From contig CP069393.1 of assembly GCA_016887505.1 (NCBI GenBank), positions 1,474,001 to 1,538,000 on the forward strand: a stretch of 64,000 bases of DNA, read 5' to 3'. Shown one piece after another: positions 15,080 to 63,363 of this stretch. The first letter of the stretch is position 1, and each line of letters starts with the position of its first letter. The notes below the pieces were generated by a model. It saw only the letters and a program-made list of their open reading frames with translations, had not been told where the DNA came from and did no database searches. Both the position numbers and the translations under genes were made by a program. The stretch comes from Clostridia bacterium. Its GTDB lineage: Bacteria > Bacillota > TC1 > UBA5767.

Positions 15080-18000
15080 TTATATTAGCGCTGATTTTTG
15101 TAAAAGTCTCTCAATAACAACTGCAATCTCCGCCCTCGACATACCTTTTTGGGGTGCAAGAGTAACATCAGTCCTACCAGATATAAGGCCCGTCTTTAAA
15201 CAAGTTGCAACACTGTTTCTTGCATAGTTTGCAACGAGCTCAGCATCTTCATATTCGGCAAATAGCCCAGCAACCTCATCATCACGCAAAGAAGCCTCCA
15301 TACCCGTTAACTTCATTGTTCTTGCAACAATCGCCATTACTTGCTCCCGGGTAATTTCTTCTTCAGGTCTAAAGGTTCCATCACTATACCCTGCAATAAG
15401 ACCATACTGTACGGCAGTCGTAATGTAGCTTGCATACCAATCCGTTTCCGATACATCCGTGAAGTTTTCACTACCATTCCCCGCTTCAAGCCCCAGAGCT
15501 TTTACCAAGATTGTAGCAAATTCAGCGCGATTGACTTGACTATTGGGAGCATACTCGTTATTTCCAATACCGGACACAACCATTCTCGCGCCCATTTCAT
15601 GGATAGAATTCTGTGCCCAATGATTCTCAATATCCGTAAAAATAATCTCATTATCGATCACAGCATAGGTACTGTTTGTCAGGCTACTAATTTCTGCAAA
15701 ATAGTCACCATCAATTACTAGCATCCGGGTCGGTACATGGCGAGTACTTCCATCTGAATTAATGGCTATTCCTGTTAAGATGCTCGTTTGATCTAGCGCG
15801 ACAGAAATGGCAATTCTTCGTGTTACGTATGAGCCAAAACTGTTTACCAAGATTTCTTTCCCATTATATGTGCAACGAATGGTGAAATCTTCAGCCGGGC
15901 TCACAATCGAAAACTTATTTTTTTGAGCTGCCTCTTCCAGCATATCAACCATTTCATCAGATGCCTCGCTAATGCGAATCTCCACCGTAATGTCTTTTAA
16001 AGCAACTCCTTCACCGAAGCGATTTGCAATGTCATCAATTGCAATCAACTTGGCTGGCAATCGATAACTAGTATTTTTCGTTAGCATCTCAATCGTTGAT
16101 TCTTTCGACTCCAAATCTTTGATTGTCTGTCCATTTATTAAACTAGCGCATATACTTGAACCCGTTTTTATCGGGATTACAACTTCTGCACCCTGAGCTC
16201 TAGATTTAAGGATCTCACAAAGTTTCTCATCAGAAACCGTCAACATTGTAGTAGACTGGGCATTACTAGTTTCTGTTCTAAGGCTTCCCGCAAATTCTTT
16301 GTCATCATCCACATAAATAGCTACATATTCATTAGTACTATTATCCGACGAGGCTCGAGTAGCACTTTTTGTGAACACCACTTTCCCCTCAAGCTTGTTG
16401 AAATTGTTACTATCTGATGAAAATGTCCAGTAATAGGTTTCTCCTTTTTCTGCCTTGACATATGACATAAGTGGCGTCCCGTTCGAATCTTTCCATGAAA
16501 TTGTACCAGGAACCATAACATCATTAAACTGAACACCACTTAAATCCACCTTGATTTTTTCAAACCGGTCGGCTTTTTCTTGAAAGGTAGGTGTTCCTGT
16601 TAGATTGGCCTTGAAGATATTGATACCCGTTACAATCTTTTCAAAATCATTATGGTTTTGATCACCTTGGATAATAATCTTCACTGTATAGGTTCCGGCA
16701 TTCATCGGTTTCCCTGGAAGGAACTCTGTTTCCCCTTCACACATATAACTATATTCAGAAGAAATGTTAGATTCCGTTAGAATCTCTACCGACTCGCCAT
16801 CATAGATTTTTTCTGTTTCAATCTCATAATCATCCAAATAATTATCCTTAGAAATTACTGGAAGAATAGTCGTGCTTAACGGTTTGTAGTCTTCAGCATT
16901 CCGATTTGGTATAAATATGATTTCATATTTAGAATCTCCATCCACCGGTGGAAGTACGTTTGGATCCTGTGCTTCGCTCCAAGCCCAGGTTCCTGTTATT
17001 GGTTCCTCCCCAAATTTCACCATGCCACCTATAATCGGGATAGACTCCAACTTTGTGCCATAGACTGCATTTGCCCTTGGTGGTATCTCAACAATCAGGG
17101 TACCCTTTTCCGTAGAAATCGTTGTTCCTGTACTAGATTCCGAAGAAGCAATCGGTTCTTTCTTCTTGATTCTTTGATAAAAAGTATAGTTTGTATTTGG
17201 CGATAGGTCACTGAAATAAGGACTATCCTGCCATGATAAGTTATCCCGCTTATACTCGCATCCATTTACTGCATTCAGAACTATGCTGGTTGCAGTTTGG
17301 CTTTCAAGCGTCGGTGCGCTTGGAGTTGCTGGTAGGGTAGTAAATTGAATCGTATCCGTATATGTAGTTACGTTGCCAGCGAAATCCACGGCTGCTACAT
17401 AAACATAATACTGAGATTTTGCAGCCAATCCTGATAGTTCAAACGTCTTGTCTATTTCTGTTCCATTCTCGATGATATGTTCCGGGGTGCTATTAACATT
17501 TGATATACAGATCTTTTCAATACCACTCGTTTTATCATATGGTGTGATTGTTATCGAAGCACTTTGTGACGTTATTTCCTTTACGATAGTTTCCAAAATA
17601 GTTGGTCTAGTCTGATCTATTTTAATAGCATTGGTAAATATTTTATCTTCGACTGTATTGCTACTAATCTCTTTCAAATAATATTCAAACGATTTCCATG
17701 AACAATCATCCGTGAATTGAATTTTATCAAAAAAGTTCTGTCCATCTGTACTTACAGTATAGCCAGTTGGAGCCACGAGATTCACTTGCCCAATGTACCA
17801 ATCATTTTCCCCAAGCGTGCCTTCAACGGTTGCAACAGGCGCTGAAATATTTGATGCAGGAACCATGACTGTAGCTATTTCACCACTATTATAATACTCT
17901 GTTTCTTTATACCTAACATAATAGTTCCCCTTGGATAAACCAGTTATGTCAGCTCCACTACATGCAACCCAGTCACTCTGATCTATGCTAAACTCCATTT

Positions 18001-19435
18001 TTTCATTCGTTCCTGTTATTATTCCATCGGAATAGCCAATGAATCTTGGAGCAAGGCCTAGTAGATTTTCGGGCGCATTTTGTTCTCCTTTGGTTATTGT
18101 AATCTCTAAAGAGTTTTGAACACCGTTACCATCATTGGCAACAGCTATTACCGTGACCTTGCCAATCGATTCGCTCGTTAAAAGTCCACTAGCATTTATC
18201 TTTGCTTTTCCAGTTCCATTTTCGACAGACCAACTTACAGATTTATCTCTTGCATCCTCCGGACTCGCTATTGCAACCATTTGTAAAGTATCTCCATATG
18301 CAAGGGTATCTTTATCATTTTTAGATGTAACTTCCAATGATTCAACCTTAATTGGAGCAACCCAATATTCTGTGCTAAGCCTTGGTATGTCCCCTTCCTC
18401 TTGAGTCCATGTTAGATAACGGGTATCCGATAGGTACGATTTATCCAAATTCTTATTTAAAAGTTCGGATAATGGCTCATCTGTTGAAGTATAATTGTAA
18501 AAACAATTATCTGAAACGGCTGTTCCCAACATATTATTCGGCGTCCATAGCGTGTTATAGTAGCAGCTATCCGCATAATAATTCATGCTACCCTCTCCCA
18601 TAACTTGACCGAAGCCATTCATATTCTCAATCATCCCAGCGTTGAATACGTTCCCCAATTCGCCATATTGGTTCTTGCCTACTATACCACCGTGGTTTTG
18701 CATCGTGTAATATGAATTTTCTGTGTTCTTTGCAACAAATGCCATATTATAACAATTGAATAAAGACCCAAAATAATTGTATCCAGCTATTCCACCGACT
18801 AATTCAACCCCAGACACTATTGTATAAGCGTCAGTACTGCAGTTATATACTTGCACTCCATTATGTCCAACAACTCCTCCAACCCTTCTATGGCCTGTAA
18901 CATCCGAGTCAACAACCGATATATTGTATACAGTCCCGTAATTCAAGCCCACCGCAAGGCCTACCATATCCTTCCCATTTACCCTACCATTCGATAAAAC
19001 AAGATTACAAAGTGTCCCTCCTTGCAATATCCCGAACAAGCCACTGTAACTACTCTGATACTCTACTGTGAAATTTGATATTTCATGACCTTTTCCATCC
19101 AGAGTTCCCTGAAATCTCTGGTCAGGTGAAAAACCGTTGATACCTATTGGAACCCATTTTTCATAAACACCCAAATCAATATCTGATGCTAATTCAAAAT
19201 ATTTACCAACATAGGTACTGCCTCCATTAACATTTGCGCCGAATTGGGCAAAGTCTTGTGGCGAATCAATACTGTAGGGATCATCCTTTGATCCATCCCC
19301 TCCACTAAAAAGATAGCTAGAGTTTGCAATAGGCAAATCTAAGACTATAGCGCTACATTCATCAATCTGTACACCAAAAAACAATGTCGCCATCAAACAA
19401 AGGGTCAGCAGTGCAATAACAGGTCGCTTTTTCAT
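15080..19435 (-). CDS. S-layer-anchored GLUG/Ig-like surface protein
   Basis: 1451 residues from ATG 19435 (GGAGG nine bases upstream; the upstream in-frame start lacks a site). A signal peptide (KKRPVIALLTLCLMATLFFG) leads. About 45-330: beta-rich region with GLUG-type repeats (VGGVVGHNG, GGIAGYNYFG, GGIVGKNQYG). About 365-450: bacterial Ig-like (BIG2) domain. About 620-710: fibronectin III-like domain. About 780-1030: further Ig-like/MBG-type modules. About 1070-1270: a module also seen in the SLH protein at 55.5 kb. The end has three SLH domains (about 1275-1451; FTDIENHWAQ, FTDVSETDWYASY, FAEYEDAELV) that bind pyruvylated secondary wall polymer. Role: cell-surface adhesin or S-layer-associated structural protein. 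No enzyme domain is seen. Confidence 0.88.
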   Translation of the reverse strand: MKKRPVIALLTLCLMATLFFGVQIDECSAIVLDLPIANSSYLFSGGDGSKDDPYSIDSPQDFAQFGANVNGGSTYVGKYFELASDIDLGVYEKWVPIGINGFSPDQRFQGTLDGKGHEISNFTVEYQSSYSGLFGILQGGTLCNLVLSNGRVNGKDMVGLAVGLNYGTVYNISVVDSDVTGHRRVGGVVGHNGVQVYNCSTDAYTIVSGVELVGGIAGYNYFGSLFNCYNMAFVAKNTENSYYTMQNHGGIVGKNQYGELGNVFNAGMIENMNGFGQVMGEGSMNYYADSCYYNTLWTPNNMLGTAVSDNCFYNYTSTDEPLSELLNKNLDKSYLSDTRYLTWTQEEGDIPRLSTEYWVAPIKVESLEVTSKNDKDTLAYGDTLQMVAIASPEDARDKSVSWSVENGTGKAKINASGLLTSESIGKVTVIAVANDGNGVQNSLEITITKGEQNAPENLLGLAPRFIGYSDGIITGTNEKMEFSIDQSDWVACSGADITGLSKGNYYVRYKETEYYNSGEIATVMVPASNISAPVATVEGTLGENDWYIGQVNLVAPTGYTVSTDGQNFFDKIQFTDDCSWKSFEYYLKEISSNTVEDKIFTNAIKIDQTRPTILETIVKEITSQSASITITPYDKTSGIEKICISNVNSTPEHIIENGTEIDKTFELSGLAAKSQYYVYVAAVDFAGNVTTYTDTIQFTTLPATPSAPTLESQTATSIVLNAVNGCEYKRDNLSWQDSPYFSDLSPNTNYTFYQRIKKKEPIASSESSTGTTISTEKGTLIVEIPPRANAVYGTKLESIPIIGGMVKFGEEPITGTWAWSEAQDPNVLPPVDGDSKYEIIFIPNRNAEDYKPLSTTILPVISKDNYLDDYEIETEKIYDGESVEILTESNISSEYSYMCEGETEFLPGKPMNAGTYTVKIIIQGDQNHNDFEKIVTGINIFKANLTGTPTFQEKADRFEKIKVDLSGVQFNDVMVPGTISWKDSNGTPLMSYVKAEKGETYYWTFSSDSNNFNKLEGKVVFTKSATRASSDNSTNEYVAIYVDDDKEFAGSLRTETSNAQSTTMLTVSDEKLCEILKSRAQGAEVVIPIKTGSSICASLINGQTIKDLESKESTIEMLTKNTSYRLPAKLIAIDDIANRFGEGVALKDITVEIRISEASDEMVDMLEEAAQKNKFSIVSPAEDFTIRCTYNGKEILVNSFGSYVTRRIAISVALDQTSILTGIAINSDGSTRHVPTRMLVIDGDYFAEISSLTNSTYAVIDNEIIFTDIENHWAQNSIHEMGARMVVSGIGNNEYAPNSQVNRAEFATILVKALGLEAGNGSENFTDVSETDWYASYITTAVQYGLIAGYSDGTFRPEEEITREQVMAIVARTMKLTGMEASLRDDEVAGLFAEYEDAELVANYARNSVATCLKTGLISGRTDVTLAPQKGMSRAEIAVVIERLLQKSALI

Positions 19436-19864
19436 CTTGTCCTCCGATACTAAAATATGTTTTATTCTTTTGTGTAATACTATCTGCATTATCTGTATTG
19501 GAATCGCCGGCATATTGCTAACCTAAAAATCAACACCACACACCTTCATCTACTTTACATATTGATATTGATAAATACCTAAAACATATTCAGAGGCGCA
19601 CTATTATGAGCTGCAAGTTTCTGCTCACAGTATGCAAAAACTTGATAAATAGCCATTGACTATTTAATATTACTATATTCAAAATACTATTGCACGGGTT
19701 ATTTTGTATACGATAGCAATAGTATGTTAAGCATATACTAAAAATATCATCCCTATGCCTACAAGCAAAACTTCCATCTTCAGACTTCAAGCTGCGTATG
19801 TTTTTATTAAGAACTGCTATTTGCTATTTATGGATTCTGTAAACTGATGCACCATTTTTGGGTC
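19436..19864. other. Intergenic region upstream of the SLH gene
   Basis: About 430 AT-rich bases between the SLH start and the first IS256-type element. It should hold the SLH promoter. I see no gene and no clear regulatory structure. Confidence 0.4.
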
Positions 19865-21210
19865 GTATACAATTAAGTGCGCAAAAGTAATTTTCAAAAA
19901 AGGAAAGCCATCAGGAACTCCGAATTAGGTAAGTGACGAAACTATCCGAAAAGGAGATCAACTGATGACTCATCTTAATTCTAATCTACCCTTTGAAAAA
20001 TGCTACTCAAATTCATGACTGCTGAAGATCCTATGCTAGCGATGCTGAACTGGCTTTGCGATCAACTCATGCAAGTTGAGTTTGCAGAAGAAATCGGTGC
20101 TGGCAAATCTGAGCGCACCGAAACCCGTAAGAAGTATCGCGCAGGATACCGTCCAAGACGTTTTGACACCAGAATGGGCAGCATGTACTTGATGGTACCC
20201 AAACCACGTAAGGGAGGCTATATACCCTTCTTCGTGACTGAACGGAAACGATCCGAAGTGGCTCTGATCAATGTTATACAAGAGGCATTCATCAACGGAG
20301 TTTCCACCAGGAAAATCGAGAAGCTTGCCAAGGGCCTAGGTATTGAATCTATTTCAAGGAGCCAGGTCAGTAATATAACCAAGGAATTACAGTCTCAGGT
20401 AGATGCATTTTTGAACCGGAAATTGGATAAGGAATATCCTGTCCTTTGGGTCGATGCCCTTTACGAAAAGATTCGCGTTGATGGGCATGTCGCCAATATG
20501 GCAGTCCATGTTGTCTGTGGTCTCAGAACCGATGGTACCAGGGATATTCTGGCCGTTGAACCCATGTATGAAGAGTCCAAGTCTAGCTACAATCACATGT
20601 TTGACTCTTTGAAGGAACGTGGCTTAGAGAAAGTCTGGCTGGTTGTCAGCGATGCTCACAAAGGGCTCGTGGCCTCTGTGAAAGAATCGTTCATCGGTAC
20701 TACATGGCAACGTTGCAAGGTTCACTTCATGAGAAACATCTTGGCGCATATACCTGCAAAGGAAAAGAAATCCTTTGCCGCAAAACTTAAAAACATATGG
20801 CTTCAGCCTGATGAACAAGCTGCACGGTCCTATGCAAACCTGATTATGGATGAATACGAATCCCGTTTTCCTAAAGCGATTGAAACACTGGAAGATGGGC
20901 TTGAGGACTCAATTAGATTCTACGAATTTCCTCGAATTGACTCTCGTAAGATTTCATCTACAAATATGATTGAGAGACTCAACCGAGAAATCCGCCGTCG
21001 TTCCGGTGTTGTAGGTGTTTTTCCTACTGTTGATTCATATGTCCGGCTAGTCACCAGCTACCTTATTGAATACAGTGAAGATTGGTCTACTGGTCGTTCT
21101 TATGTAAAACCTGAAACTCTTGAGCTGACTGCTTCTGAGCGCCAACAAGCAGCTTGATCGGCACAATGCCTAATTCAATACTGATGAAATTGCGCACTTA
21201 ACTTGACACT
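19865..21210 (+). mobile_element. IS256-type insertion sequence
   Basis: Imperfect terminal inverted repeats bound the transposase: left 19865-19884 and right 21190-21209 share the core TTAAGTGCGCAA. Target duplications of 8-9 bases were not obvious. An internally deleted relative lies at 27757-28032, sharing the left leader AAAGGAAAGCCATCA and the right-end block CTGATGAAATTGCG. Confidence 0.8.
20000..21157 (+). CDS. IS256-family transposase, N-terminal frameshift
   Basis: 385-residue DDE transposase (Transposase_mut family). Catalytic acids sit in the blocks WVDALYEKIRVDG (first Asp), WLVVSDAHKGL (second Asp) and STNMIERLNREIRRR (Glu), with the conserved WQRCKVHFMRN between. A better start, ATG 19965 with AAAAGGAG upstream, reads MTHLNSNLPFEK and then runs out of frame at GAAAAATG: the related relic at 27.8 kb is in frame through this point, so one A seems lost from a run of A. 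Translation from 20000 or 20018 would still yield nearly all the protein; a -1 slip on the A run would restore fusion. Activity is therefore uncertain. Confidence 0.92.
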   Translation: MLLKFMTAEDPMLAMLNWLCDQLMQVEFAEEIGAGKSERTETRKKYRAGYRPRRFDTRMGSMYLMVPKPRKGGYIPFFVTERKRSEVALINVIQEAFINGVSTRKIEKLAKGLGIESISRSQVSNITKELQSQVDAFLNRKLDKEYPVLWVDALYEKIRVDGHVANMAVHVVCGLRTDGTRDILAVEPMYEESKSSYNHMFDSLKERGLEKVWLVVSDAHKGLVASVKESFIGTTWQRCKVHFMRNILAHIPAKEKKSFAAKLKNIWLQPDEQAARSYANLIMDEYESRFPKAIETLEDGLEDSIRFYEFPRIDSRKISSTNMIERLNREIRRRSGVVGVFPTVDSYVRLVTSYLIEYSEDWSTGRSYVKPETLELTASERQQAA

Positions 21211-25439: not shown

Positions 25440-26791
25440 AAGTACATATAATGGTGTAAAAACAAAATGAGCCAAAAACTCACAACTCGGTTACAATAAA
25501 TGTGCTAGCAAATACTAAACCGAGGAGTGTGAATCATGGCTCAGTACAATATTACCCTAACCGAAGAACTCTTGCACGGTCTTTTCGTCTCAGATGGAAA
25601 AGATGAAGCTTTTTCTAACCTATTGGAAGAGATATTCAACCAAGTATTGGTTGCTCAATCTAATGACCAAATTGGTGCTGCCCCATACGAACGCACCGAC
25701 GAAAGGAAGGCTTACCGTAACGGATACAGGGACCGACAGTTGACCACTCGCGTGGGTACTCTGACGCTGCACGTCCCAAGACATCGTAACGGCGACTTCA
25801 GCACTGAACTTTTTGAGCGTTACCAGCGCAGCGAGCAAGCCCTGCTTCTGGCCATGATGCAAATGGTCGTGAGCGGTGTATCCTCCAGGAAGGTGGAAGA
25901 CATCACCTATGAACTCTGTGGCAGGAAGTTCTCCAAGTCTATGGTTTCTAAACTGTGCGAAAAGTTGGATCCCATCGTAAAGAATTTTCAGAACCGTCCG
26001 CTCGAAAAGCATTATCCCTTCCTGGTGGTGGATGCCCTTTACCTCAAGGTACGCGAAGACGGCAGAGTACGTTCCAAGGGATTACTTGTAGCGGTGGCTG
26101 TTAACCAAGAAGGTTACCGTGAAATCATCGGTTTCAGGGTGGCAGACACAGAGTCTGAAACAAGCTGGAGCGAGTTCTTCTCATCCTTGAAGGACCGAGG
26201 TCTTAAAGATGTACATCTGGTCACTTCGGACAGCCACAGAGGACTTGTGAACGCCATCAGGAAACATTTCCAGGGTGCTACCTGGCAGAGATGCCAAACA
26301 CACTTTTCAAGGAACGTGCTAGACTTGACACCAAAGTCACTGCAGCCAGAACTGAAAGAACATCTACGTAGGCTCTACGAAGCTGTTGACCTTGAAAGTG
26401 CCAACAAAGTTCGTGATGAGATTATGGACAAGTACGAAACCAAAGCATCACGTGCAATGAATCTTCTAGATGAAGCCTTTGCCGATGTCACAGCTGTTCT
26501 CAGCGTTCCCTTAAAATACAGGAAACGGATCCGAACCAGCAACGGCATTGAGCGACTAAATCAGGAGATTCGCCGTAGAGAGCGAGTCATACGGATCTTC
26601 CCGAATGAGGCTTCGGTTATCCGTCTCATTGGCGCCCTACTCATGGAACAGGACGAGAAATGGCAGACTGGCCGCAAGTATTTTGAGATGGCTCTTTACT
26701 ACCAGACGTTTTCTGAATCTAAGAATTCTGCAAAGGCTGCTGCAGTCGCCTAATCTAAACTACCGAGGAATTTACACACAAATGTGGACTT
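25440..26791 (+). mobile_element. IS256-type insertion sequence
   Basis: Left end starts AAGTACATATAATGGTGTAAA (imperfect) at 25440; the right end TTTACACACAAATGTGGACTT ending at 26791 reads inversely similar. One transposase gene fills the element. Its left end abuts a TnpB relic. Short sequences like its left end also occur near 9.82 kb and 55.04 kb. Confidence 0.75.
25536..26753 (+). CDS. IS256-family transposase
   Basis: 405-residue intact DDE transposase (Transposase_mut). First Asp in LVVDALYLKVREDG, second Asp in HLVTSDSHRGLV, catalytic Glu in TSNGIERLNQEIRRRE; WQRCQTHFSRNVLDL between them is the conserved C/H block. Zinc-like upstream region GYRDRQLTTRVGTLTLHVPR is typical. CGAGGAG precedes the ATG. 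Unlike the element at 19.9 kb the frame is continuous from the good start, so this one may be active. The G+C-richer coding sequence compared with neighbours fits foreign origin. Confidence 0.95.
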   Translation: MAQYNITLTEELLHGLFVSDGKDEAFSNLLEEIFNQVLVAQSNDQIGAAPYERTDERKAYRNGYRDRQLTTRVGTLTLHVPRHRNGDFSTELFERYQRSEQALLLAMMQMVVSGVSSRKVEDITYELCGRKFSKSMVSKLCEKLDPIVKNFQNRPLEKHYPFLVVDALYLKVREDGRVRSKGLLVAVAVNQEGYREIIGFRVADTESETSWSEFFSSLKDRGLKDVHLVTSDSHRGLVNAIRKHFQGATWQRCQTHFSRNVLDLTPKSLQPELKEHLRRLYEAVDLESANKVRDEIMDKYETKASRAMNLLDEAFADVTAVLSVPLKYRKRIRTSNGIERLNQEIRRRERVIRIFPNEASVIRLIGALLMEQDEKWQTGRKYFEMALYYQTFSESKNSAKAAAVA

Positions 26792-42967: not shown

Positions 42968-43433
42968 TATCGTGTTCTCCTTTATGAACTTATGAAAAAG
43001 TCCATCTTGTACAATCCATCCACAGGAGTTCTATCCCTGTAGTTAATACCACGAAATCTTTTGCTTTTGTTTTGTCCTTTCAAAAAATTCAAATTCGAGA
43101 GCTCAATCGTTGTATCATAAATACATCACCCGGCCAGATATTCCTACAATTAAGGTACTTACAACATCGTAATGCTTCTAGCTAGCTCTCTCCCCCCAAC
43201 ACACTATATCCACATGCATGGGATGCATAAACATATTCATACCATTCAGAGAAGCTGCGTGCATTTATCTATATATACCTGAATTTTATGCCTAAAATAC
43301 ATAAAAGCCTTTGAAATCAAAAGCTTTTATGTATCACTATTAGGGTTTAGATTTAGTATCAAAATCGTATATCACTCTTCCACCACACTCCAAATACAGT
43401 GGCCAATACTTTTGTCCCAATGGAACCTTAAGG
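42968..43433. other. Intergenic region between ATP-grasp and SLH genes
   Basis: About 465 bases. It contains the ATP-grasp leader and a hairpin with T-run (43299-43333). No gene found. Confidence 0.45.
43299..43333 (-). terminator. Terminator-like hairpin of the repeat SLH gene
   Basis: TACATAAAAGC and GCTTTTATGTA pair around a loop; minus strand continues TTTTAGG. About 100 bases past the SLH gene stop. The adjacent GTATCACTATTAG is similar to the conserved 3' flank at 36.67 and 55.16 kb. Confidence 0.55.
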
Positions 43434-46400
43434 TTACTCTTCAAATAATACCGATACCGTGTAAGTCACCGTAGATCTATCTTCAGCACTGACTGTATAT
43501 TCTACGGGGTCTGTAAAATCATTTCGTGACCATTTCGACTGTGTTCGGCCATTTACAGTTACTGTCGATCCTTCTGAGTTGGTAAACTCTGCACAAAGCC
43601 AAGTCAGTTTTGTCCCAAGAGGTACGATTAATTCAATCGTCTTATTGTCTTCATCTATTGTGCCAATTACCGAAGGGTCTAACTGATGCAAGCTGAATTC
43701 TGAGATTACTTTATTGCTTGAAAATACAGCGGGCAATAACATATCCCCTTCTTCACCAGTTAGCTTGAGGGCTGCTCCTACTATCTTGTCTATTGCTTCT
43801 GGTTGTCTAGCAATTCCCTCATACACGGAGCTAAAACTCAATGCTCTGGCAGCTTGTACCTTTGGATCTGACATATCACCAGCTTCTCCTGTTAGCGTTA
43901 AAGCTGCCGTTTCTAGCTTTAGGTTTGCCCTGGGTTCTCTGCATATTGCTGAATACAGATCACTCAAACCAGTTACTCTAGCAACCTGCACCTCAATAGA
44001 AGACATATCACCATATTCACCAGTTAGCGCTATGGCTGTGTCTACTAACCTATTGTTTTCATCTGGCTGCTTAGCTATTGCCATATACAATTCACCAAAG
44101 CTTAAAGCTCTAGCAGCCTGTACCTCTTTCGATGACATATCGCCATATTCACCGGTTAACGCTATGGCTGCTCCTATTAGCTTATCACTTGCTGATGGAT
44201 TTTCGCCTATCGCGTAATACAAGGCGCTAAAACTTTCTGCTCTGGCAGCTTGCACCTCTTTTGATGACATATCGCCAGCTTCGCCTGTTAGCGCTATCGC
44301 TGCAGCGATTAGTGCATCACTTGCATCTGGATTCGTGATTATTGCTCCATACAAGGCACTAAAACTGGATGCTCTAGCAGCTTGTACCTCTTTCGATGAC
44401 ATATCACCGGCTTCTCCTGTTAATTGAGTGGCTGCAGCTATTAGCATCTCACTTGCGGCAGGTCTATAGGCTATCGCTTCATATAAAGCACCGAAACTTG
44501 AAACTCTAGCAATCTGCGCCTCTTTCGATGACATATCGCCAACTACACCAGTCAGCTCGATGGCTGTATTAATTAGTTCATCACTTGTATCCGGATACAT
44601 AGCGGCTATTGAAGTGTACAAGGTACTGAAGCTTGATGCTCTAGCTGCCTGCACCCCTGCATCAGACATATGACTTGCATCTCCAGTTAGTTCCAAGGCT
44701 ACATTTTTTAGCATTTCACTTGCATCGGGTTTGTTGGCTATTGCTTCATACAAAGCACTGAAACCAGAAACTCTAGCAATCTGTGCCTCTTTCGATGACA
44801 TGTCTCCAACAGGACCAGTTAAGGCGATAGCTGTATCAATTAGCTCATCACTTGACTCTGGATATGCATCGGCAATTGAGGTGTACAAGGTACTGAAACT
44901 TGATGCTCTAGCAGCCTGTGCCTCTTTCGATGACATATCTCCAACAGGACCAGTTAGTCTTACGGCTAATTCTTTTAGAATACCAGTTGTTGCAGGATTG
45001 CTGCCTATTGCTTGATACAAGGTACTGAAGCTTGATGCTCTAGCGGCCTGTACCCCTGCATTCACTTCTGCACCTACCATTTCCTTAGCTGTTCCTGTTA
45101 ATTCTAAGGCTATTGCTTCTAGCATATCACTATATACTGGATAACGGGCTATCGCCATATACAAGGTACTGAAGCTTGATACTCTAGCGGCCTGTACCTC
45201 GGCATCTGACTTATTACTAGCTCCTCCAGTTAGTTTTATGGCTGCATCAATTATCTCATCACGTGCTACTGGCTGGCGACTTATTGCTGAGTATAAATCG
45301 CTGAAGCTTCTTACTCTATATACTTGCGCGTTCTTTGATGACAGATCACCAGCCTCACCTGTTAGTTTAATAGCACCTGCTATTAAACTATCACTTGCTT
45401 CTGGCTGTCTGGCTATTGCTTCGTACAAGGCGCCAAAGCTATATGCTCTGTACATCTGTACTTCCTCAGATGACATATTCCAAGCTTCGCCAGTGAGCTC
45501 TCTTGCAGCTCTAAGTATCTCCATTCCTGCTTCTGGTTGCCTTGCAATTGATGAATATAAGACACTAAAGCTTCTTGCTCTCATGGACTGAACATATGCT
45601 ACATCGGTTGAGAAAGTATCTTGACTAGTTCTCCTTTTATTTTCGCTATCAACGGTTTTAGAAGTTCCTGCTGGAACTGTTTTTTTGCCTGCTTTAATAC
45701 CTTCCGTACCCTCAGCAGCTTCAAGGAGTGTGCCGTGTGTCGTTACATATAAGTTATTTGCATTCGCAATAACAGTACTGACATCGCCGTCCCCGCTGAT
45801 TTTTACTCCATTTCCCTCTACCGTAATACTTTCAACACTAGCTCTTTCGTAAATGATAACGTTCGATTTTTCAGCTTGAACACAAATATTTTTAACCTTT
45901 GAATTCTTAATTATCACTGTTACGTTCGGTGCGATAACGTTTATCGATTCTACATCACCTTCAATGATAACATCATCACTACCATCTACAATGACATCAC
46001 CAATTTCAACCCCATCTTCAGTATATAACCTAGTTCGTCCATCAACACGCGCTATGACTATATTTTTTACTTGGGAACTTCCAATGATTCTGATGGAATT
46101 CACACCACCACCACGGATAACGGTTCTCCCGGTAACGACAACACCATCCAGTGTTACTTCTCCATCTCCAACACCATCTCCAATAATCAAATCCCCCTCA
46201 ATCATAATATCCTTTAATATCACATCGGGTACATTTATCATTAAGCTACCAGTAATATCCTCAGTATATGTACCTGGTTCCTTAATATAATTTTTCAAAA
46301 TATTATCCATTACCTGGGCAAACTCAGCTCTTGTAATGAATTGCTTTGGATTCAGCTTACCATTTGATCCAACAGCATATTCTGCTTCCACAACTGAAGA

Positions 46401-46919
46401 AGTTGCTTCTTTTGCCCACGGGCTGACTGAATTTTTATCTATGAAAGCATCTAAGGCCTGTTCTGAACCTTCAGACAATTTAAATGCTTTGGCAAGCACC
46501 GTAAAAACTTCCTCGCGTGTAATGTTGCTGTCTGGATTCAGTTCATTATCACAACCAGCAAAAAAGTCTAGATAAACTGCTTTTTGCATATCATCATAAT
46601 ACCAGGCATTGATGTCTACATCTTGATACTGGTCTAAAGAAGCAAGCCCCGTTGCACCAAATGCTTTGTTCATAATAGCTGCCATTTGTGCTCTAGTAAG
46701 ATAGTCATTGGGCATAATGAACCCGTTATAGCCAGACAACAAATCGTTACTAACAGCATTGCTAAGTGCTACTGTGGACCAATCACTTGGCATATCAGAA
46801 AACCATGCCCTATCATTTCCTGCATCGCTGTCTATTGCCGCATAAGATGATACCGGTACTGTCGTAAAAACCATAAGCATTATTAGGATAATGCTTACCC
46901 TTCTGTTTCCAAAAACCAT
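43434..46919 (-). CDS. SLH surface protein with fourteen 44-residue repeats
   Basis: 1161 residues from ATG 46919 (GGAG nine bases upstream). Signal peptide (VSIILIMLMVFTTVPVSSYA). Three N-terminal SLH domains (about 35-215: AWFSDMPSDWSTVALSN, VDINAWYYDDMQKAV, SVSPWAKEATSSV) anchor it to the wall. About 220-400 is a beta-helix-like ladder of short V/I-D-G repeats. About 440-1065 has fourteen 44-residue repeats with consensus ARASSFSALYxAIxxxPxAS then DxLIxAAIxLTGEAGDMSS then KEVQA. The last about 90 residues are an Ig-like domain ending EYTVSAEDRSTVTYTVSV. The repeats look like pairs of helices and I recognise no named family. Role: surface structure or adhesion, by inference. Confidence 0.9.
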   Translation of the reverse strand: MVFGNRRVSIILIMLMVFTTVPVSSYAAIDSDAGNDRAWFSDMPSDWSTVALSNAVSNDLLSGYNGFIMPNDYLTRAQMAAIMNKAFGATGLASLDQYQDVDINAWYYDDMQKAVYLDFFAGCDNELNPDSNITREEVFTVLAKAFKLSEGSEQALDAFIDKNSVSPWAKEATSSVVEAEYAVGSNGKLNPKQFITRAEFAQVMDNILKNYIKEPGTYTEDITGSLMINVPDVILKDIMIEGDLIIGDGVGDGEVTLDGVVVTGRTVIRGGGVNSIRIIGSSQVKNIVIARVDGRTRLYTEDGVEIGDVIVDGSDDVIIEGDVESINVIAPNVTVIIKNSKVKNICVQAEKSNVIIYERASVESITVEGNGVKISGDGDVSTVIANANNLYVTTHGTLLEAAEGTEGIKAGKKTVPAGTSKTVDSENKRRTSQDTFSTDVAYVQSMRARSFSVLYSSIARQPEAGMEILRAARELTGEAWNMSSEEVQMYRAYSFGALYEAIARQPEASDSLIAGAIKLTGEAGDLSSKNAQVYRVRSFSDLYSAISRQPVARDEIIDAAIKLTGGASNKSDAEVQAARVSSFSTLYMAIARYPVYSDMLEAIALELTGTAKEMVGAEVNAGVQAARASSFSTLYQAIGSNPATTGILKELAVRLTGPVGDMSSKEAQAARASSFSTLYTSIADAYPESSDELIDTAIALTGPVGDMSSKEAQIARVSGFSALYEAIANKPDASEMLKNVALELTGDASHMSDAGVQAARASSFSTLYTSIAAMYPDTSDELINTAIELTGVVGDMSSKEAQIARVSSFGALYEAIAYRPAASEMLIAAATQLTGEAGDMSSKEVQAARASSFSALYGAIITNPDASDALIAAAIALTGEAGDMSSKEVQAARAESFSALYYAIGENPSASDKLIGAAIALTGEYGDMSSKEVQAARALSFGELYMAIAKQPDENNRLVDTAIALTGEYGDMSSIEVQVARVTGLSDLYSAICREPRANLKLETAALTLTGEAGDMSDPKVQAARALSFSSVYEGIARQPEAIDKIVGAALKLTGEEGDMLLPAVFSSNKVISEFSLHQLDPSVIGTIDEDNKTIELIVPLGTKLTWLCAEFTNSEGSTVTVNGRTQSKWSRNDFTDPVEYTVSAEDRSTVTYTVSVLFEE
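43725..45597 (-). repeat. Fourteen tandem 132-bp coding repeats
   Basis: In-frame repeats of 44 codons inside the SLH gene. Repeats 5 to 12 are most alike (DMSSKEVQAARASSF boundaries), the outer ones are more diverged, as expected from internal duplication. Repeat 4 has an extra four-residue insertion, and two others one extra residue. Confidence 0.9.
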
Positions 46920-47487
46920 GTCTTCTTGCTCCTGTCTTATCACATTTATTTAACTTTCTATCATATATAATAATTCATAATTATTCATAATGGTAGATTT
47001 ATATTAATAAAAAGTGAATAAATCTTGATTGTAAAGTGGTCTACATAGATTACTCTCGGTCAGACCATGTGCTTTTTTGTATTTTTAGAGTCCTGTCATT
47101 ACTAATTCAACTCAGTCAAAAAACAAAAATAACAGGGGGTTCCCCTGTTATTTATTAATTTCTTACATATTCTCTAATTGTCTACTACAAATTCCTAAAC
47201 TTCTTCCACTCATTGCACTGGTACTATTCTACCTGGCCCTAACATAACAGTCCTCTTCCTTTGCCTACCCTAGTAGGGCTGTTCCATCTCTTTTTGGCAT
47301 ATCAGTCATTACCGAATTGTTTTTCATATGCTATCGCAGAGTCTATTTTAGGTATAGCCAATAGCATTTACTTTCTTGAACCTTAAAAACCGTCGCGTAA
47401 GTATTTTTTCCTCAAGCGGCAAACGTTGCCCTTATGTCTCCATAAGAGATTGTAACTTCATTTAGGCAGCCATGCATTAACGAACCC
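46920..47487. other. Intergenic region, SLH upstream and operon 3' end
   Basis: About 570 bases. Contains the SLH leader (AT-rich, promoter not called) and the terminator at 47127-47153. Between 47160 and 47487 nothing is recognised. Confidence 0.45.
47127..47153 (-). terminator. Intrinsic terminator
   Basis: Perfect 12-base arms AAATAACAGGGG and CCCCTGTTATTT with a 3-base loop, then TTGTTTTTT on the minus strand. Probably ends the GAPDH-like/dikinase-like operon, 335 bases beyond its stop. Confidence 0.8.
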
Positions 47488-55536: not shown

Positions 55537-58500
55537 TTAGTTACTAAAGTCAGAAAGTAGATTGTAGAGTACTTGCGCCATCTGTGCACGTGTTGCGCTA
55601 TTAGTAGGAGTCAATTTCCCTTCATTACCTGATACGATACCCGCCGCGACGAAAGTCTGTATTGGATCTTTTGCATAGTCTGCAATCGTTCCCGCATCGC
55701 TGAAGTTTTCAAGAACACCTCCAGATTTTTCTGCTGGTAGTTCATCTAACACTTGTAGTGCGTTATAAAGGAGCGTGAACATATCCTGCCTTGTTATCTC
55801 CGCATTGGGTGCATACAAATTGTCACCAATGCCCTTGGATATCCCGAGTTGTTTTGCTGTCGCTAGAAAACTAGTATAATATGTGTCTCCCGCATCATCA
55901 AAATTATCCGTTAGGTCTTCGTTAACTTCAATATCGTAAGCATGCATTAACATCACAATGAACTGTCCTCGTGTTAACGTATTGTTGGCATTGAATAAAT
56001 GATTTCCGGTGCCTACAGTAATTCCACGTGCGGCACAGAATGTAACTGGATCAAAATACCATGCACCATCCGTTACGTCATCAAAACTCACTTCATTGTA
56101 GCTAATAGCATATCGGGAAAAATGTCGCACGGTGAGGTCAACTGTACCTGTCTCCCTATTATATACTCCTCTGGTATGGGACAGTGAACCATGGTCGTTA
56201 ATATAGTAAACGATTAGCGCCTCCGCATTTTCATTCAACTTTAGGGTGTAGGGAATCCTGATATTTGCAAAACCGTGCAATGCTGAAATTTGGGCTTCTC
56301 CAGCCATTAAGGTAAAGTCATATACAGGTCGGTCGCCGATTAACACTTGAGCCTTGTCTGAAAGTGTCGATGGAGCCACTTCGGATATTATGAGTCTTAT
56401 CTTACTTGATTCTGCCTTGCTACAAATATAGTCTGTGGCATCTTTATCAAAGGAGACAATTGCTTTTCCAGCATTAATGATGACGGTTTGGTTTGTTTCT
56501 CCCATCTTACCAAAATCATCTCCGGCAATATCGACTTGAACTCCATTATTCGTAATTGTTAAAATTCCGTTCACAGATGTGCCGCCGTCGTATGTGATTA
56601 CTCTTATTGACTTACCTTCATTTTCGGTCGCACTTGATGTTCTGCTTGAGAAGGGTATTGCTGTCACTTCATCCGACAAGGGGCTGCTATAGGAGCTATG
56701 TCCGGCTTTTATTGCGAAATAATAGGTTGTACGATTTTGCAGTTTGTCTATTGTAGTGGTCGTCTTATCATATACAACTATACTATTTTCATCTGAAAAC
56801 ACACCAGAGCTTGTGGAGTAATACAGTTTGTAAAATGCGCTGTTTACGCTATCCCATGTTAGTGTTACCTTTCCGTTACCAGCTGTTGCTTTGAGGCCTG
56901 TTGGTATCGGTGGGTTTTCGTCGTCACTGATTGTGATGGGTAGCAATTTCTGCGTACCTAATGTGGCGCCCCCCGTGGGATTATACAGAGTATAGGTGAA
57001 ATCAAGATATCCGTTATATATATTGTCACCATAAATTGTGCAAGGAAACGATTTTTCACCATTTTCCCCATCTGCCCATGTTAAGGTACCACTAGTCGCC
57101 ATGTAATTCGTGCCAGCTATCGCAGTTCCGTTCGTTGTGTAATAATCAACTGTGACAATTCCGTTGGTACCTCCAATACGCTCTACTTTCCCTGAACCGC
57201 TATACCCTTCTTCAACTTCCCAACTGCTTGAGATAAATTGAATTGTGCCCGGTTGCAGTGCAATGTATTCGGGGATCATAATTTTTAACATATCGCTGAT
57301 ATTATTGGCAGAATCCTTCACCACAATATAAATATCTTTTGCTCCTGGTGTAAGGGAATCTAAGGCAATTGTTTGTTCTAACGTGTCGCAAGAACTACCG
57401 GCAACAGTTGTGTCAATTGCAGGTTCGTCATCTCCACTATCGACGACATCAAAGAAGTAGTCCCCTGCTTTATCTGAAGTAAATTTAACCGTTGCATCTT
57501 CGTCACTTGTGCGGGTAACCTCGCCAGCGACGAGCGATGGAGCAATGTTTGAATCCTTGACCCATAATGTACCTCCAGTGCCTGTGTAAGTAGTATAACC
57601 ATCCTTGGTAGTGGGAACGGTAAACTGGCTGACTGTTATCCAGTTGTTTGAAGAACCAATATATACAAATCGATCTTCAGTTTGAATGCTCATAGCACCA
57701 TCTACAGTTATTGTGCCTTCAAAAACCATTGGACCCTGTATTGCTGTATAATCACCATATATTTTAATATCGCCGTTTGCATTGGCTCGTGCAGACACCA
57801 TATCGCTGGATACCTCGAGGTCACCCATGATGGTAAGGCTGCTGCTATTAGTATCCTGTGATGTAGCAACTTCAACCGGCCCCTCAACATTATTGACTCT
57901 TATTTCTGAATCTTCAGAATGTACGCCTAAAGACATTTCACTGGGGTAGCAAACGACGTTCAGTTCTTCTCCGTTTATATAATTGAGAGAACCTTGTTCA
58001 ACAGTCAAGTCTGATCGTGTAGGGCGGAAAGTGAGGCTTTGACCATCAAGGTCAATAGTAATATCTTTGTTAACGATGGAAACTGGATAATAGTAATCCA
58101 AGTCTCCAAAAAGCTTTATGGTCTGTGCATCACCCTCATATATTGCTGAGGCTAAAAGGGGGTATGCCGTTTGAGTTTCAGTGATCTCACATATATTGGG
58201 GAGCGTGAGCGTCTTTGCCCACACATATGCGCTGTTTGCTTTATATTCCGTATAGCCTTCTTTTGATGAGGTGGATTCATAATCATCGGGGGTTTTTTTT
58301 ACTTTTGAACCGTTGGTATACAAGTAGATATACGTAGCATCGGGAGCTGGTACTGTTGCGATTCCCCCGTCAATCGTTACTTTGCTGTTATTCGTGGCAT
58401 ATACACCACTTCCGCTATCGGAAGAGGCCGCTACATTTCCGCCAACTTGAACCGTAGAAAAACTTCCTGTTGAAGAAGCCGCATAAACGCCCATTTGATA

Positions 58501-59403
58501 GCCAAAAACATTGCCTCCAACGCTTAAAGAGGCTGTGTCATATTGCCAATAACTGTCGACATATGTCCCATATGAATTATATGAAAAAACATCACCTAGA
58601 ACAGTCATGTCGCTAACATTAACATTAACCCCAATACCATATAAGGCGATAACATCACCGCCTATCATGACACTGCTTCTTGTGGTGGTATATCCTGTAG
58701 ATAAAGCACCAGCGGAACCCTTTACAGTACCATTTACCGTCACGTTTGCGCCATAAGATGCATTGACAGCATATGTACTCGTATTTGTTGTTGTGGAAGT
58801 AACATCTCCATCGACAGTAATTGAACCATTACGAGATGCGCTTATTCCATATAGACCACTTACGTTTCCTTGAATGACGATAACACCACTATCGTAAGCA
58901 TAAGCAGGGGCATCGCCAAAAACATCACCTGCAACCGTGATCACAGACCCGGAATTTTCGGCATAAATGCTGTAACCGCTACTGTTTTTTGCATGGGTAA
59001 CGCTGGTGACCTCGATTGTCCCCCCATTATTAGCATAGACACAAGAATCTGCAGCAGATGACGAGATATTTAGTTCACCATTTCCCATAAGATTAAGACT
59101 TCCACCATCCGCCTGAAGAGCTTTGCCTGTGGCAACTGAAATGGCAATATTATTATCATTCAGATCGATAATTATATCCTTCGTAATAATAATTCCTGTG
59201 CTTAGACTGATGTCTTGTAGAATCTTTATGGTAGTAGTCTCAGAGTCTGATGCTGCAGCAAGCGCTTCATTAAGGCTTAAGTAACCAATTTCACCAATCT
59301 CGCAGACATTGCTATCTGTAACAGCCAGTGTTGTCGGCACGAAGCCAAATAATAAAAATACCGTTAGCATCAATGATAGAATTTTTCTAATAATTATTTT
59401 CAT
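55537..59403 (-). CDS. S-layer-anchored Calx-beta/FN3 surface protein
   Basis: 1288 residues from ATG 59403 (GGAGG seven bases upstream). Signal peptide KIIIRKILSLMLTVFLLFGF. About 30-620: beta-helix/pectin-lyase-like ladder of short V-x-G-D-V repeats (VTVNGTVKG, VTVDGDVTS, VSGLYGIS and so on). About 735-840: Calx-beta-like domain (VEEGYSGSGKVERIGGTNG). About 845-930: fibronectin III domain (PTGLKATAGNGKVTLTW). About 950-1090: module shared in style with the 15 kb SLH protein. C-terminus: three SLH domains (FDDVTDGAWYFDPVTFC, FDDAGDTYYTSFL, FSDAGTIADYAKD). Likely a surface adhesin or matrix protein. A 177-residue membrane protein gene lies 66 bases upstream. Confidence 0.88.
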   Translation of the reverse strand: MKIIIRKILSLMLTVFLLFGFVPTTLAVTDSNVCEIGEIGYLSLNEALAAASDSETTTIKILQDISLSTGIIITKDIIIDLNDNNIAISVATGKALQADGGSLNLMGNGELNISSSAADSCVYANNGGTIEVTSVTHAKNSSGYSIYAENSGSVITVAGDVFGDAPAYAYDSGVIVIQGNVSGLYGISASRNGSITVDGDVTSTTTNTSTYAVNASYGANVTVNGTVKGSAGALSTGYTTTRSSVMIGGDVIALYGIGVNVNVSDMTVLGDVFSYNSYGTYVDSYWQYDTASLSVGGNVFGYQMGVYAASSTGSFSTVQVGGNVAASSDSGSGVYATNNSKVTIDGGIATVPAPDATYIYLYTNGSKVKKTPDDYESTSSKEGYTEYKANSAYVWAKTLTLPNICEITETQTAYPLLASAIYEGDAQTIKLFGDLDYYYPVSIVNKDITIDLDGQSLTFRPTRSDLTVEQGSLNYINGEELNVVCYPSEMSLGVHSEDSEIRVNNVEGPVEVATSQDTNSSSLTIMGDLEVSSDMVSARANANGDIKIYGDYTAIQGPMVFEGTITVDGAMSIQTEDRFVYIGSSNNWITVSQFTVPTTKDGYTTYTGTGGTLWVKDSNIAPSLVAGEVTRTSDEDATVKFTSDKAGDYFFDVVDSGDDEPAIDTTVAGSSCDTLEQTIALDSLTPGAKDIYIVVKDSANNISDMLKIMIPEYIALQPGTIQFISSSWEVEEGYSGSGKVERIGGTNGIVTVDYYTTNGTAIAGTNYMATSGTLTWADGENGEKSFPCTIYGDNIYNGYLDFTYTLYNPTGGATLGTQKLLPITISDDENPPIPTGLKATAGNGKVTLTWDSVNSAFYKLYYSTSSGVFSDENSIVVYDKTTTTIDKLQNRTTYYFAIKAGHSSYSSPLSDEVTAIPFSSRTSSATENEGKSIRVITYDGGTSVNGILTITNNGVQVDIAGDDFGKMGETNQTVIINAGKAIVSFDKDATDYICSKAESSKIRLIISEVAPSTLSDKAQVLIGDRPVYDFTLMAGEAQISALHGFANIRIPYTLKLNENAEALIVYYINDHGSLSHTRGVYNRETGTVDLTVRHFSRYAISYNEVSFDDVTDGAWYFDPVTFCAARGITVGTGNHLFNANNTLTRGQFIVMLMHAYDIEVNEDLTDNFDDAGDTYYTSFLATAKQLGISKGIGDNLYAPNAEITRQDMFTLLYNALQVLDELPAEKSGGVLENFSDAGTIADYAKDPIQTFVAAGIVSGNEGKLTPTNSATRAQMAQVLYNLLSDFSN

Positions 59404-59469
59404 ATATATCCTCCTTATCATACTAATTGAAAAATGCAGCTCTTTGCTTCCATCAAGTATCATTGGATT

Positions 59470-61783: not shown

Positions 61784-62488
61784 ATGGGAAGAATATGCAA
61801 GTACAGCAAAGAGGAAAAAATTAAGGCATGCCAAGATTATAACAGCGACAAAGGTAGCTTTAGTAGCATTGCAGACAGCATCGGCACAGATCCGTCGGTC
61901 GTACGCGAATGGTATCTTCGATATAATGAACACGGAGAAGAAGCATTCAATCATTCTCCTGCAAACCAGTCCTATTCTAAGGAGTTCAAGCAATCGATTG
62001 TCAATTTGTACTGTTCAGGTGAATATTCATTAGCTGATTTAGGTGCCAAATATAAAATTTCTACTTGGACAATACGTCGGTGGATGAAAAAGCATTATAA
62101 TAGTGTAGAACAAAAAGATTATTTACCCAAACCGGAGGTCTACACCATGATATCCAAGAAAACAACATTTGAAGAGAGATTGGTAATCGTCAAATGGGTT
62201 ATTGACAATGACATGAACTATAAGGAAGCTGCCAGCATATATGCAGTCAAATACTCTCTTGTCTACAGTTGGGTCCAGAAGTATCTGAAAGATGGTGTGA
62301 GTGGACTTGAGCATAAGAAACGTGGACCTAAGCCTAAAAGTAAATTGGATGAAAGTAGCATGAGTGAGACTGAGAAACTGAAATATGAGTTGGAGCGAGA
62401 AAAAGCACTGAGGAAAAAGGCGGAATTCAGACTCGAGCTTCTTAAAAAAAAAGAGGAAATCGAAAAGAAGCTTCGCTCTCGAAAGTGA
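61784..62488 (+). CDS. IS3-family OrfA
   Basis: 234-residue protein with two helix-turn-helix units (about 1-60 and 60-100, plus a third HTH around 120-165) followed by a charged coiled coil (EKLKYELEREKALRKKAEF). In IS3 elements OrfA binds ends and is the N-terminal part of the OrfAB transposase. A run of nine A (62444-62452) near the end is the probable -1 slip site; the shifted frame is open through to orfB. ATG is preceded by GGAGG inside the hairpin. Confidence 0.9.
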   Translation: MGRICKYSKEEKIKACQDYNSDKGSFSSIADSIGTDPSVVREWYLRYNEHGEEAFNHSPANQSYSKEFKQSIVNLYCSGEYSLADLGAKYKISTWTIRRWMKKHYNSVEQKDYLPKPEVYTMISKKTTFEERLVIVKWVIDNDMNYKEAASIYAVKYSLVYSWVQKYLKDGVSGLEHKKRGPKPKSKLDESSMSETEKLKYELEREKALRKKAEFRLELLKKKEEIEKKLRSRK

Positions 62489-63363
62489 GACAAGAACCAA
62501 GTTACCTTACAGTGGATTATTATCATGAGCTGGACTACCCAGTAAGGACAATCTGTGAAGAGCTTGGTATAGCTAGAAGCGCTTACTATAAGCATAAGAA
62601 CAGAGTCAAACCCGAAAAGGAAAAGCAGGATGAACTACTCTGTACACTTATTCTAGAATATCATGCTACCTACGACGGCATATTGGGTTATAGACGTATG
62701 ACAATGTTTATCAATAGGCTTAATCAGACATCCTATTCGGAAGGATATATTCATCGTCTGATGTCGTATCTTGGAATTACTGCAAGGATCCGGAGAAAGA
62801 AAGTCAACCGCAAAAGAGTCAAACCTGATTACGTCAAAGAGAACATTCTCGCCAGAGACTTCGCGTCAGAAAAGCCTAATGAGAAATGGCTGACGGATGT
62901 CACAGAATTCTCGATTCCTGGTGATGGCAAAAAGCTATATCTCAGTCCAATAATGGATCTTTATGATAACAGCATAGTGGAGTATGAACTGTCTTTCAAA
63001 AACAACAATCAACTGGTATTCAAGATGTTTGATAGAGCGGTATTAAATAATCCAGAAGCTAAGCCAATATTTCATAGCGACAGGGGGTTTCAATATACCA
63101 ACAATAATTTCAGAAGCAAGATTGATGACGCCAATATGCAGCAAAGCATGTCGCGCATTGGTAAGTGTATTGATAATGGTCCAATGGAGGGCTTCTTCGG
63201 TACATTAAAAACAGAGATATTTTATGGAAAGAAATTCAGTTCCATGGAAGATTTGATTCATAAAGTCAAGAATTACATAACGTTCTACAATGATAAAAGG
63301 TTTCAGAAACGACTGAAGTGCTTGACTCCGAGAGGGTGTAAAATAATTGGTGTAAACTCCTGA
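62485..63363 (+). CDS. IS3-family OrfB, 3' end fused to foreign sequence
   Basis: 292-residue rve integrase-type transposase. HTH_21-like N-terminus, then DDE: NEKWLTDVTEFSI (first Asp), PIFHSDRGFQYTN (second Asp), DNGPMEGFFGTLKTE (Glu). GTG at 62485 overlaps the orfA TGA. The C-terminus QKRLKCLTPRG is normal to about LTPR; the remaining CKIIGVNS is unlike IS3 and probably comes from the adjacent IS256-type end. The usual last residues (of the type EYRNQA) are missing. It may still work, but this looks like a disrupted copy. Confidence 0.9.
   Translation: MRQEPSYLTVDYYHELDYPVRTICEELGIARSAYYKHKNRVKPEKEKQDELLCTLILEYHATYDGILGYRRMTMFINRLNQTSYSEGYIHRLMSYLGITARIRRKKVNRKRVKPDYVKENILARDFASEKPNEKWLTDVTEFSIPGDGKKLYLSPIMDLYDNSIVEYELSFKNNNQLVFKMFDRAVLNNPEAKPIFHSDRGFQYTNNNFRSKIDDANMQQSMSRIGKCIDNGPMEGFFGTLKTEIFYGKKFSSMEDLIHKVKNYITFYNDKRFQKRLKCLTPRGCKIIGVNS

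Follow-up and report, generated by a model that had tools for sequence, protein, structure and literature searches.

Fourteen tandem units of about 44 residues in an SLH-anchored clostridial protein: a new repeat sequence family predicted to fold as a HEAT/armadillo-like alpha-solenoid

What kind of repeat fills the C-terminal half of a large S-layer-linked protein of a Clostridia bacterium, and what might such an array do at the cell wall? The gene lies in a 64,000-nucleotide stretch of contig CP069393.1 (referred to below as the window, whose numbering is used throughout). The original prediction, made from the letters alone, described fourteen tandem 44-residue repeats that matched no family such as TPR, HEAT or ankyrin, regarded them as recently duplicated, and proposed a new solenoid used as an extended surface stalk or adhesin. 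The gene is a single open reading frame on the minus strand. At the N-terminus of its product, a probable signal peptide is followed by three SLH domains; then come a CBM54-like segment carrying the ChiW cleavage motif, a linker and the 14 units, and the chain ends with an Ig-like DUF5018 domain:

43434..46943, minus strand: whole gene of the 1169-aa surface protein, single ORF
46836..46919, minus strand: probable signal peptide, residues 9-36, MVFGNRRVSIILIMLMVFTTVPVSSYAA, judged by eye from the translation
46317..46802 (46680-46802, 46506-46628, 46317-46439), minus strand: three SLH domains (Pfam PF00395; genome-wide search)
45669..46271, minus strand: CBM54-like segment, residues 225-425 (match to ChiW at its start only)
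46095..46100, minus strand: predicted cleavage site Asn282/Ser283 in GGGVNSIR (motif of PMC5132251)
45585..45668, minus strand: polar linker, residues 426-453, read from the translation
43719..45584, minus strand: array of 14 tandem units, residues 454-1075 (anchor spacing and alignment)
43437..43706, minus strand: Ig-like domain DUF5018, residues 1080-1169 (Pfam PF16410; PDB 8a9y_T)

Two start codons are available, a GTG at 46943 and an ATG at 46919 (codon 9); the ATG is the likelier start, lying immediately ahead of the signal peptide. We infer that the protein is exposed on the surface. The S-layer link is borne out by the three SLH domains, which give 60.1 bits against a cut-off of 20.8 over three stretches in the Pfam scan and each exceed the cut-off in the genome-wide search. 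The Pfam scan of the 1169-aa protein revealed no catalytic domain.

The array itself is as regular as had been supposed. Fourteen contiguous units follow each other in a single frame, with distances between anchors of 44, 44, 44, 48, 44, 45, 44, 45, 44, 44, 44, 44, and 44 residues; the bounds are 43719-45584 on the minus strand rather than 43725-45597 as originally given. All units lie on the minus strand:

45453..45584, minus strand: unit 1, 44 aa
45321..45452, minus strand: unit 2, 44 aa
45189..45320, minus strand: unit 3, 44 aa
45045..45188, minus strand: unit 4, 48 aa, with a 4-residue insertion close to its end
44913..45044, minus strand: unit 5, 44 aa
44778..44912, minus strand: unit 6, 45 aa
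44646..44777, minus strand: unit 7, 44 aa
44511..44645, minus strand: unit 8, 45 aa, nearest to unit 6
44379..44510, minus strand: unit 9, 44 aa
44247..44378, minus strand: unit 10, 44 aa
44115..44246, minus strand: unit 11, 44 aa
43983..44114, minus strand: unit 12, 44 aa
43851..43982, minus strand: unit 13, 44 aa
43719..43850, minus strand: unit 14, 44 aa, with a degenerate end

Alignment of the 14 units yields the consensus ARASSFSxLYxAIAxxPxASDxLIxAAIxLTGEAGDMSSKEVQA, close to the one first proposed, and eight residues (R2, Y10, I13, P17, A27, L30, T31, and G32) are invariant in all of them. Pairwise identity between units averages 53% (range 36-84%). The strong periodicity claimed at the outset is reflected in a self-identity at offset 44 of 0.45, as against a mean of 0.08 and a maximum of 0.12 in 1000 shuffles of the same residues. 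At the DNA level, TRF detects a period of 132 in the array and a higher-order period of 267. Two long antisense ORFs on the plus strand within the array (43714-44217 and 45238-45591) probably reflect nothing more than the recurring codon composition.

By sequence, the repeat belongs to no recognised family, in agreement with the original prediction. None of the Pfam and NCBIfam repeat families (TPR, ankyrin, LRR, and others) exceeds its curated cut-off on the array, and no HEAT/ARM model of Pfam appears at E ≤ 10 for the whole protein or for the array alone, with HMMER filters limiting the sensitivity for weak matches of this kind. The nearest candidate is LRV_2 (PF25591), which owes its sub-threshold match to the stretch AIxxNPxASDxLIxAA. 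It reaches E 6.3e-4 at best among 12 three-unit windows, two of which match at E ≤ 1, while the array as a whole scores 18.4 bits (E 0.0021) and the whole protein 14.8 bits, below the cut-off of 27 bits. The LRV_2 score on the array is level with that of a yeast ubiquitin-like domain (E 0.0015), a plainly spurious match, and four reversed windows used as a Pfam control gave E 0.015 at best; the forward excess is, on these scores, small and unspecific. LRV_2 gives no signal in the bacterium's own genome. An rRNA methyltransferase model of NCBIfam (best E 1.6e-6 over 27 residues) was rejected at 27.6 bits against a cut-off of 269, and so were the Pfam matches to Sde2, GIPC1, and DUF4908 (E 0.001-0.01); all were put down to noise of the kind that an alanine-rich helical repeat produces. 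The best match of the array was at E 0.087 in PHROGs and at E 0.15 in the PDB searched with a sequence profile. A search of titles and abstracts found nothing that joins alpha-solenoid, HEAT, armadillo or LRV repeats with SLH or surface proteins in the present manner; two tandem-repeat papers (PMC1876623 and PMC2447325) deal, in their available portions, with other repeats.

Structure prediction places the array in a familiar architecture. For a block of three units, the check originally recommended, AlphaFold2 returned a helical solenoid with a pLDDT of 87.3 and a pTM of 0.84 (87, 87, 78, 71, and 52 for the five models), the alignment input being the protein's other three-unit windows. For six units, the best model had a pLDDT of 84.1 and a pTM of 0.86, the other four scoring 58-65. 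Both predictions use alignments built from repeats within this one protein and therefore are not independent evidence. In the six-unit model, each unit comprises three helices: a short one at about positions 40-44 continued by 1-3, a second at 5-16, and a third at 17-31 ended by LTG, so the alternating helices with a fixed LTG turn that had been read from the consensus reappear in the model. Neither model found a partner at E ≤ 0.001 when Foldseek was run against the PDB. When the Foldseek list was realigned with VIA-align using the six-unit model, structures titled PP2A occupied seven of the eight top rows and a Phytophthora-effector/phosphatase entry the remaining one, while cohesin, importin, condensin, and designed alphaRep/armadillo proteins followed in lower rows. 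The best row, the PP2A A subunit with its HEAT numbering, aligned 232 residues at Z 9.7, rmsd 4.6, and 13% identity, with no sequence kinship detected; for helical repeats, a Z below about 13 may signify no more than a shared arrangement.

Thus, the array is predicted to be a curved alpha-solenoid that is HEAT/armadillo-like in architecture, a reading that stops short of membership of either family. Like the HEAT/armadillo solenoids of the PP2A A subunit, importins, cohesin, condensin, and alphaRep, it would consist of stacked amphipathic helices. With three predicted helices per unit of about 44 residues, it comes close to the armadillo plan. It differs from these proteins in matching no HEAT/ARM model of Pfam, in its 13-14% identity in the best structural rows, and in being SLH-anchored and presumably extracellular. 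Units of natural HEAT arrays are usually less alike than the 53% found here. Thus, the proposal of a new solenoid holds for the sequence family and, as far as the models go, for the solenoid, but not for the architecture; the array is a new sequence family of known architecture, and neither a new architecture nor a new kind of system.

How old is the array? High identity of the middle units had been taken as a sign of recent duplication. It is indeed high in protein, with 84% between units 6 and 8 and 82% between units 10 and 11, but at the DNA level these pairs reach no more than 83% and 76% identity. Where two units have the same amino acid, their codons differ in 43% of cases, and pooling all 91 unit pairs gives a pS of 0.565 (dS about 1.05) against a pN of 0.315. 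Recent duplication is not supported by these values, which point instead to purifying selection that has long kept the units alike. The pN/pS ratio is 0.56 over all sites and 0.47 without the eight most variable ones. The higher-order period of 267 equals a pair of units (45+44) and so fits an older duplication of two units that would have produced 6-7 and 8-9. The GC content of the array (0.445) is above that of the remainder of the gene; since third-position GC (0.307) matches that of the N-terminal part (0.300) and of seven other genes in the window (0.254-0.352), the excess can be ascribed to amino-acid composition. Horizontal transfer of the array was considered and rejected, third-position GC being ordinary for the window and codon usage not foreign.

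Variation among the units is not spread evenly. Eight unit positions (8, 11, 15, 16, 18, 22, 25, and 29) have an entropy of at least 2.2 bits, and a moment test against shuffles detects helical periodicity of variability at positions 3-16 (p 0.016) and 18-31 (p 0.0045). Each long helix presumably has a conserved face that is buried and a variable face that is exposed. At the eight variable sites, pN/pS rises to 0.84, a value that relaxed drift at positions facing the solvent could explain in place of selection for binding. The periodic variability permits a variable binding surface, and any solvent-exposed face would give the same pattern.

Within the searched sets the array is an orphan and apparently lineage-restricted. 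The bacterium's own genome (2.56 Mb) contains no further copy, and the repeat is missing from the three other genomes of its four-genome family, from the nine others of its ten-genome class (E ≤ 0.001 with the protein query and E ≤ 1 with the profile query), and, with the profile query, from the 397 others in a phylum sample of 398. The search works, since the same profile recovers the home locus in the phylum sample at E 3.4e-57. None was found in 82 genomes of another class, partly contained in the phylum sample, a set that has no positive genome and shows nothing by itself. Plasmids and phages yielded no relative of the repeat. Two scans of genome contigs produced 14 and 27 pattern matches and a scan of viral contigs 58, none confirmed by tblastn; these scans used short peptide patterns from the 1169-aa protein that diverged relatives would escape, and the contig collections may omit the bacterium's own genome or a very near one. 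Since the closest comparisons were limited to two congeners and another member of the family, the gene may exist in unsampled relatives.

Outside the array, residues 222-282 match PDB chain 5gzt_A by phmmer at E 1.7e-11, a chain of the chitinase ChiW from Paenibacillus, and sequence searches past residue 282 gave no convincing match. As described in the available text of PMC5132251, ChiW of Paenibacillus sp. FPU-7 is built of SLH domains, a CBM-54 beta-helix, a linker, and Ig-like and GH18 domains; the segment aligned here lies in CBM-54. That domain forms a right-handed beta-helix, binds polysaccharides of the cell wall, and undergoes cleavage within the motif G-G-G-X-[NQDH]-S-[VI]-X, where the chain is broken between Asn and Ser. 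The CBM54-like segment probably folds as a right-handed beta-helix as well. Its GGGVNSI at residues 278-284 agrees with the GGG-X-[NQDH]-S-[VI] part of this cleavage region, and the next residue, R, is outside the paper's list of H, K, L, N, Y, and V, so far as the consulted portion of PMC5132251 gives it; cleavage at Asn282/Ser283 is thus possible. Both proteins have in common an SLH anchor, a CBM-54 segment with a GGGxNS motif, and a polar linker. They differ in what follows the linker, which in the 1169-aa protein is the 14-unit predicted alpha-solenoid and one Ig-like domain, with no catalytic domain.

Two frames from the genus and family of this bacterium, L010 (28% identity) and L011 (31%), likewise combine SLH and CBM54-like parts. 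The L011 frame is interrupted by a contig end, and the visible C-terminal part of L010 is unlike that of the 1169-aa protein. The N-terminal half therefore looks like a general display module. At the position of the cleavage site, these frames have GAGRDS (L010) and GGGADS (L011). At the other end of the protein, PF16410 scores 42.3 bits against a cut-off of 38.2 when residues 1072-1169 are scanned alone, and is absent from the listing of the full-length scan. PDB 8a9y_T matches this domain at E 6.4e-10, and its PDB sequence matches are to a DUF4960 protein and to chains that carry the annotation putative glycoside hydrolase.

SLH proteins are numerous in this bacterium, with 49 matches across 20 open frames of the genome; two other SLH matches (G000:C1:1571783-1572343 and 2140807-2141406) each contain a stop codon inside the aligned stretch. 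Two more SLH proteins are encoded on the minus strand of the window (15080-19513 and 55537-59463), both with C-terminal SLH triplets, one containing Big_2, DUF7743, and GLUG-like stretches and the other Calx-beta and fn3. Downstream of the gene, a perfect 12-base inverted repeat, ATACATAAAAGC...GCTTTTATGTAT (43297-43334), is possibly its transcription terminator; it was not called by the terminator scan. On the minus strand, a non-coding stretch (47120-47487) follows a glyceraldehyde-3-phosphate-dehydrogenase-like gene and ends in a strong terminator-like hairpin (47127-47153); its fold z-score is -1.1, and Rfam has no match for it. Within this stretch, a short frame, MPKRDGTALLG*, begins at about 47301; two congeners give short matches to it, at E 0.0015 and 0.008. 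It resembles the start of the small MPRxDGTGPxG proteins of DUF5320 and is perhaps a degenerate gene. Three transposase loci were recognised by eye on the plus strand (20000-21157, 25536-26753, and 61784-63363), two mutator/IS256-like and one IS3-like with two ORFs.

What, then, could the array do? We slightly favour the view that it is an S-layer-anchored alpha-solenoid of HEAT/armadillo-like form that serves at the surface as a scaffold for binding or adhesion. The three SLH domains would hold the secreted protein non-covalently on the cell wall, and the CBM54-like segment with the polar linker would raise the remaining chain off it. The 14 units would stack as one continuous solenoid of three helices each (the short SSKEVQAAR, then SFSxLYxAIA, then SDxLIxAAIxLTG closed by LTG), with the Ig-like domain capping the chain. 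The invariant residues would form the packing core and the turns, and the most variable ones would recur on one face of both longer helices, creating a repeated variable surface that would suit the binding of another protein or polymer. We infer the binding role of the array from this arrangement. A more ambitious version, in which the array is a self-arisen alpha-solenoid family of a narrow lineage, displayed by the SLH/CBM54 module and offering two variable stripes per unit as an evolvable recognition surface, is tentative and the odds are rather against it.

It is also conceivable, and on the whole unlikely, that the solenoid is a passive spacer or stalk that distances the Ig-like domain from the wall and leaves the binding to that domain. 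The position of DUF5018 at the tip and its matches to the DUF4960 protein and putative glycoside hydrolase chains suit such a role, as does the usual fibrillar adhesin layout of tandem repeats plus a binding domain, according to the part of PMC8286594 available; the array likewise places tandem units between a wall anchor and a distal domain, and differs from those stalks in having no Pfam family above the cut-off. The same partial source counts a protein as a fibrillar adhesin when its stalk domains are accompanied by one or more known adhesive domains, and the Pfam scan found no adhesive domain in the 1169-aa protein, which falls outside this definition. Among stalk families, which are commonly beta domains, an alpha-solenoid would be out of the ordinary. 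With a rise of about 1 nm per alpha-solenoid unit, 14 units would span roughly 15 nm, which is short for the stalk of the original prediction and speaks mildly against a pure stalk. An interaction surface would at least fit the variability of the helical faces. A structural role, in which the array packs sideways against copies of itself or against other SLH proteins as a component of the S-layer or wall and meets no outside ligand, would be in keeping with the SLH-rich genome and the acidic array (net charge -30), yet a single-copy, apparently lineage-restricted array that no second genome possesses is unlike a core S-layer subunit, which makes this role quite improbable.

The remaining alternatives concern what the repeat is. 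A divergent true LRV or HEAT member hidden below profile cut-offs would be a matter of ancestry, compatible with the binding-scaffold explanation, and we hold it to be improbable. The LRV_2 match, better in forward than in reversed windows, and the HEAT chains that head the VIA-align list speak for it. Against it are the LRV_2 score below the cut-off and no better than a spurious one, the silence of this model in the bacterium's own genome, the absence of HEAT/ARM models from the Pfam results, and the unit itself, which in LRV proteins has about 24 residues, as opposed to 44 residues and three predicted helices here. Finally, chance or low-complexity periodicity, or a wrong frame, might be suspected in an array of 18% alanine and 12% serine; this has already been refuted by the excess of offset-44 identity over every shuffle, by a pN/pS below 1, and by the single frame kept throughout the array, and deserves practically no credence.

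Established mechanisms are unchanged by the array; its interest lies elsewhere. Alpha-solenoids are reported to be less frequent in bacteria than in eukaryotes, by a factor of about ten, and many independent origins have been argued for them, as stated in the accessible part of PMC3837014. Fourteen near-consensus units, found in one species only and held by purifying selection, make a clean case for the independent-origin question, and the array also provides a natural consensus set for repeat-protein design. Repeats of surface proteins are mostly beta domains; if the array is a binding scaffold, an alpha-helical type would join them. If, moreover, its variable stripes prove to be an evolvable recognition surface, the protein would be a bacterial surface counterpart of the HEAT/armadillo binding scaffolds.
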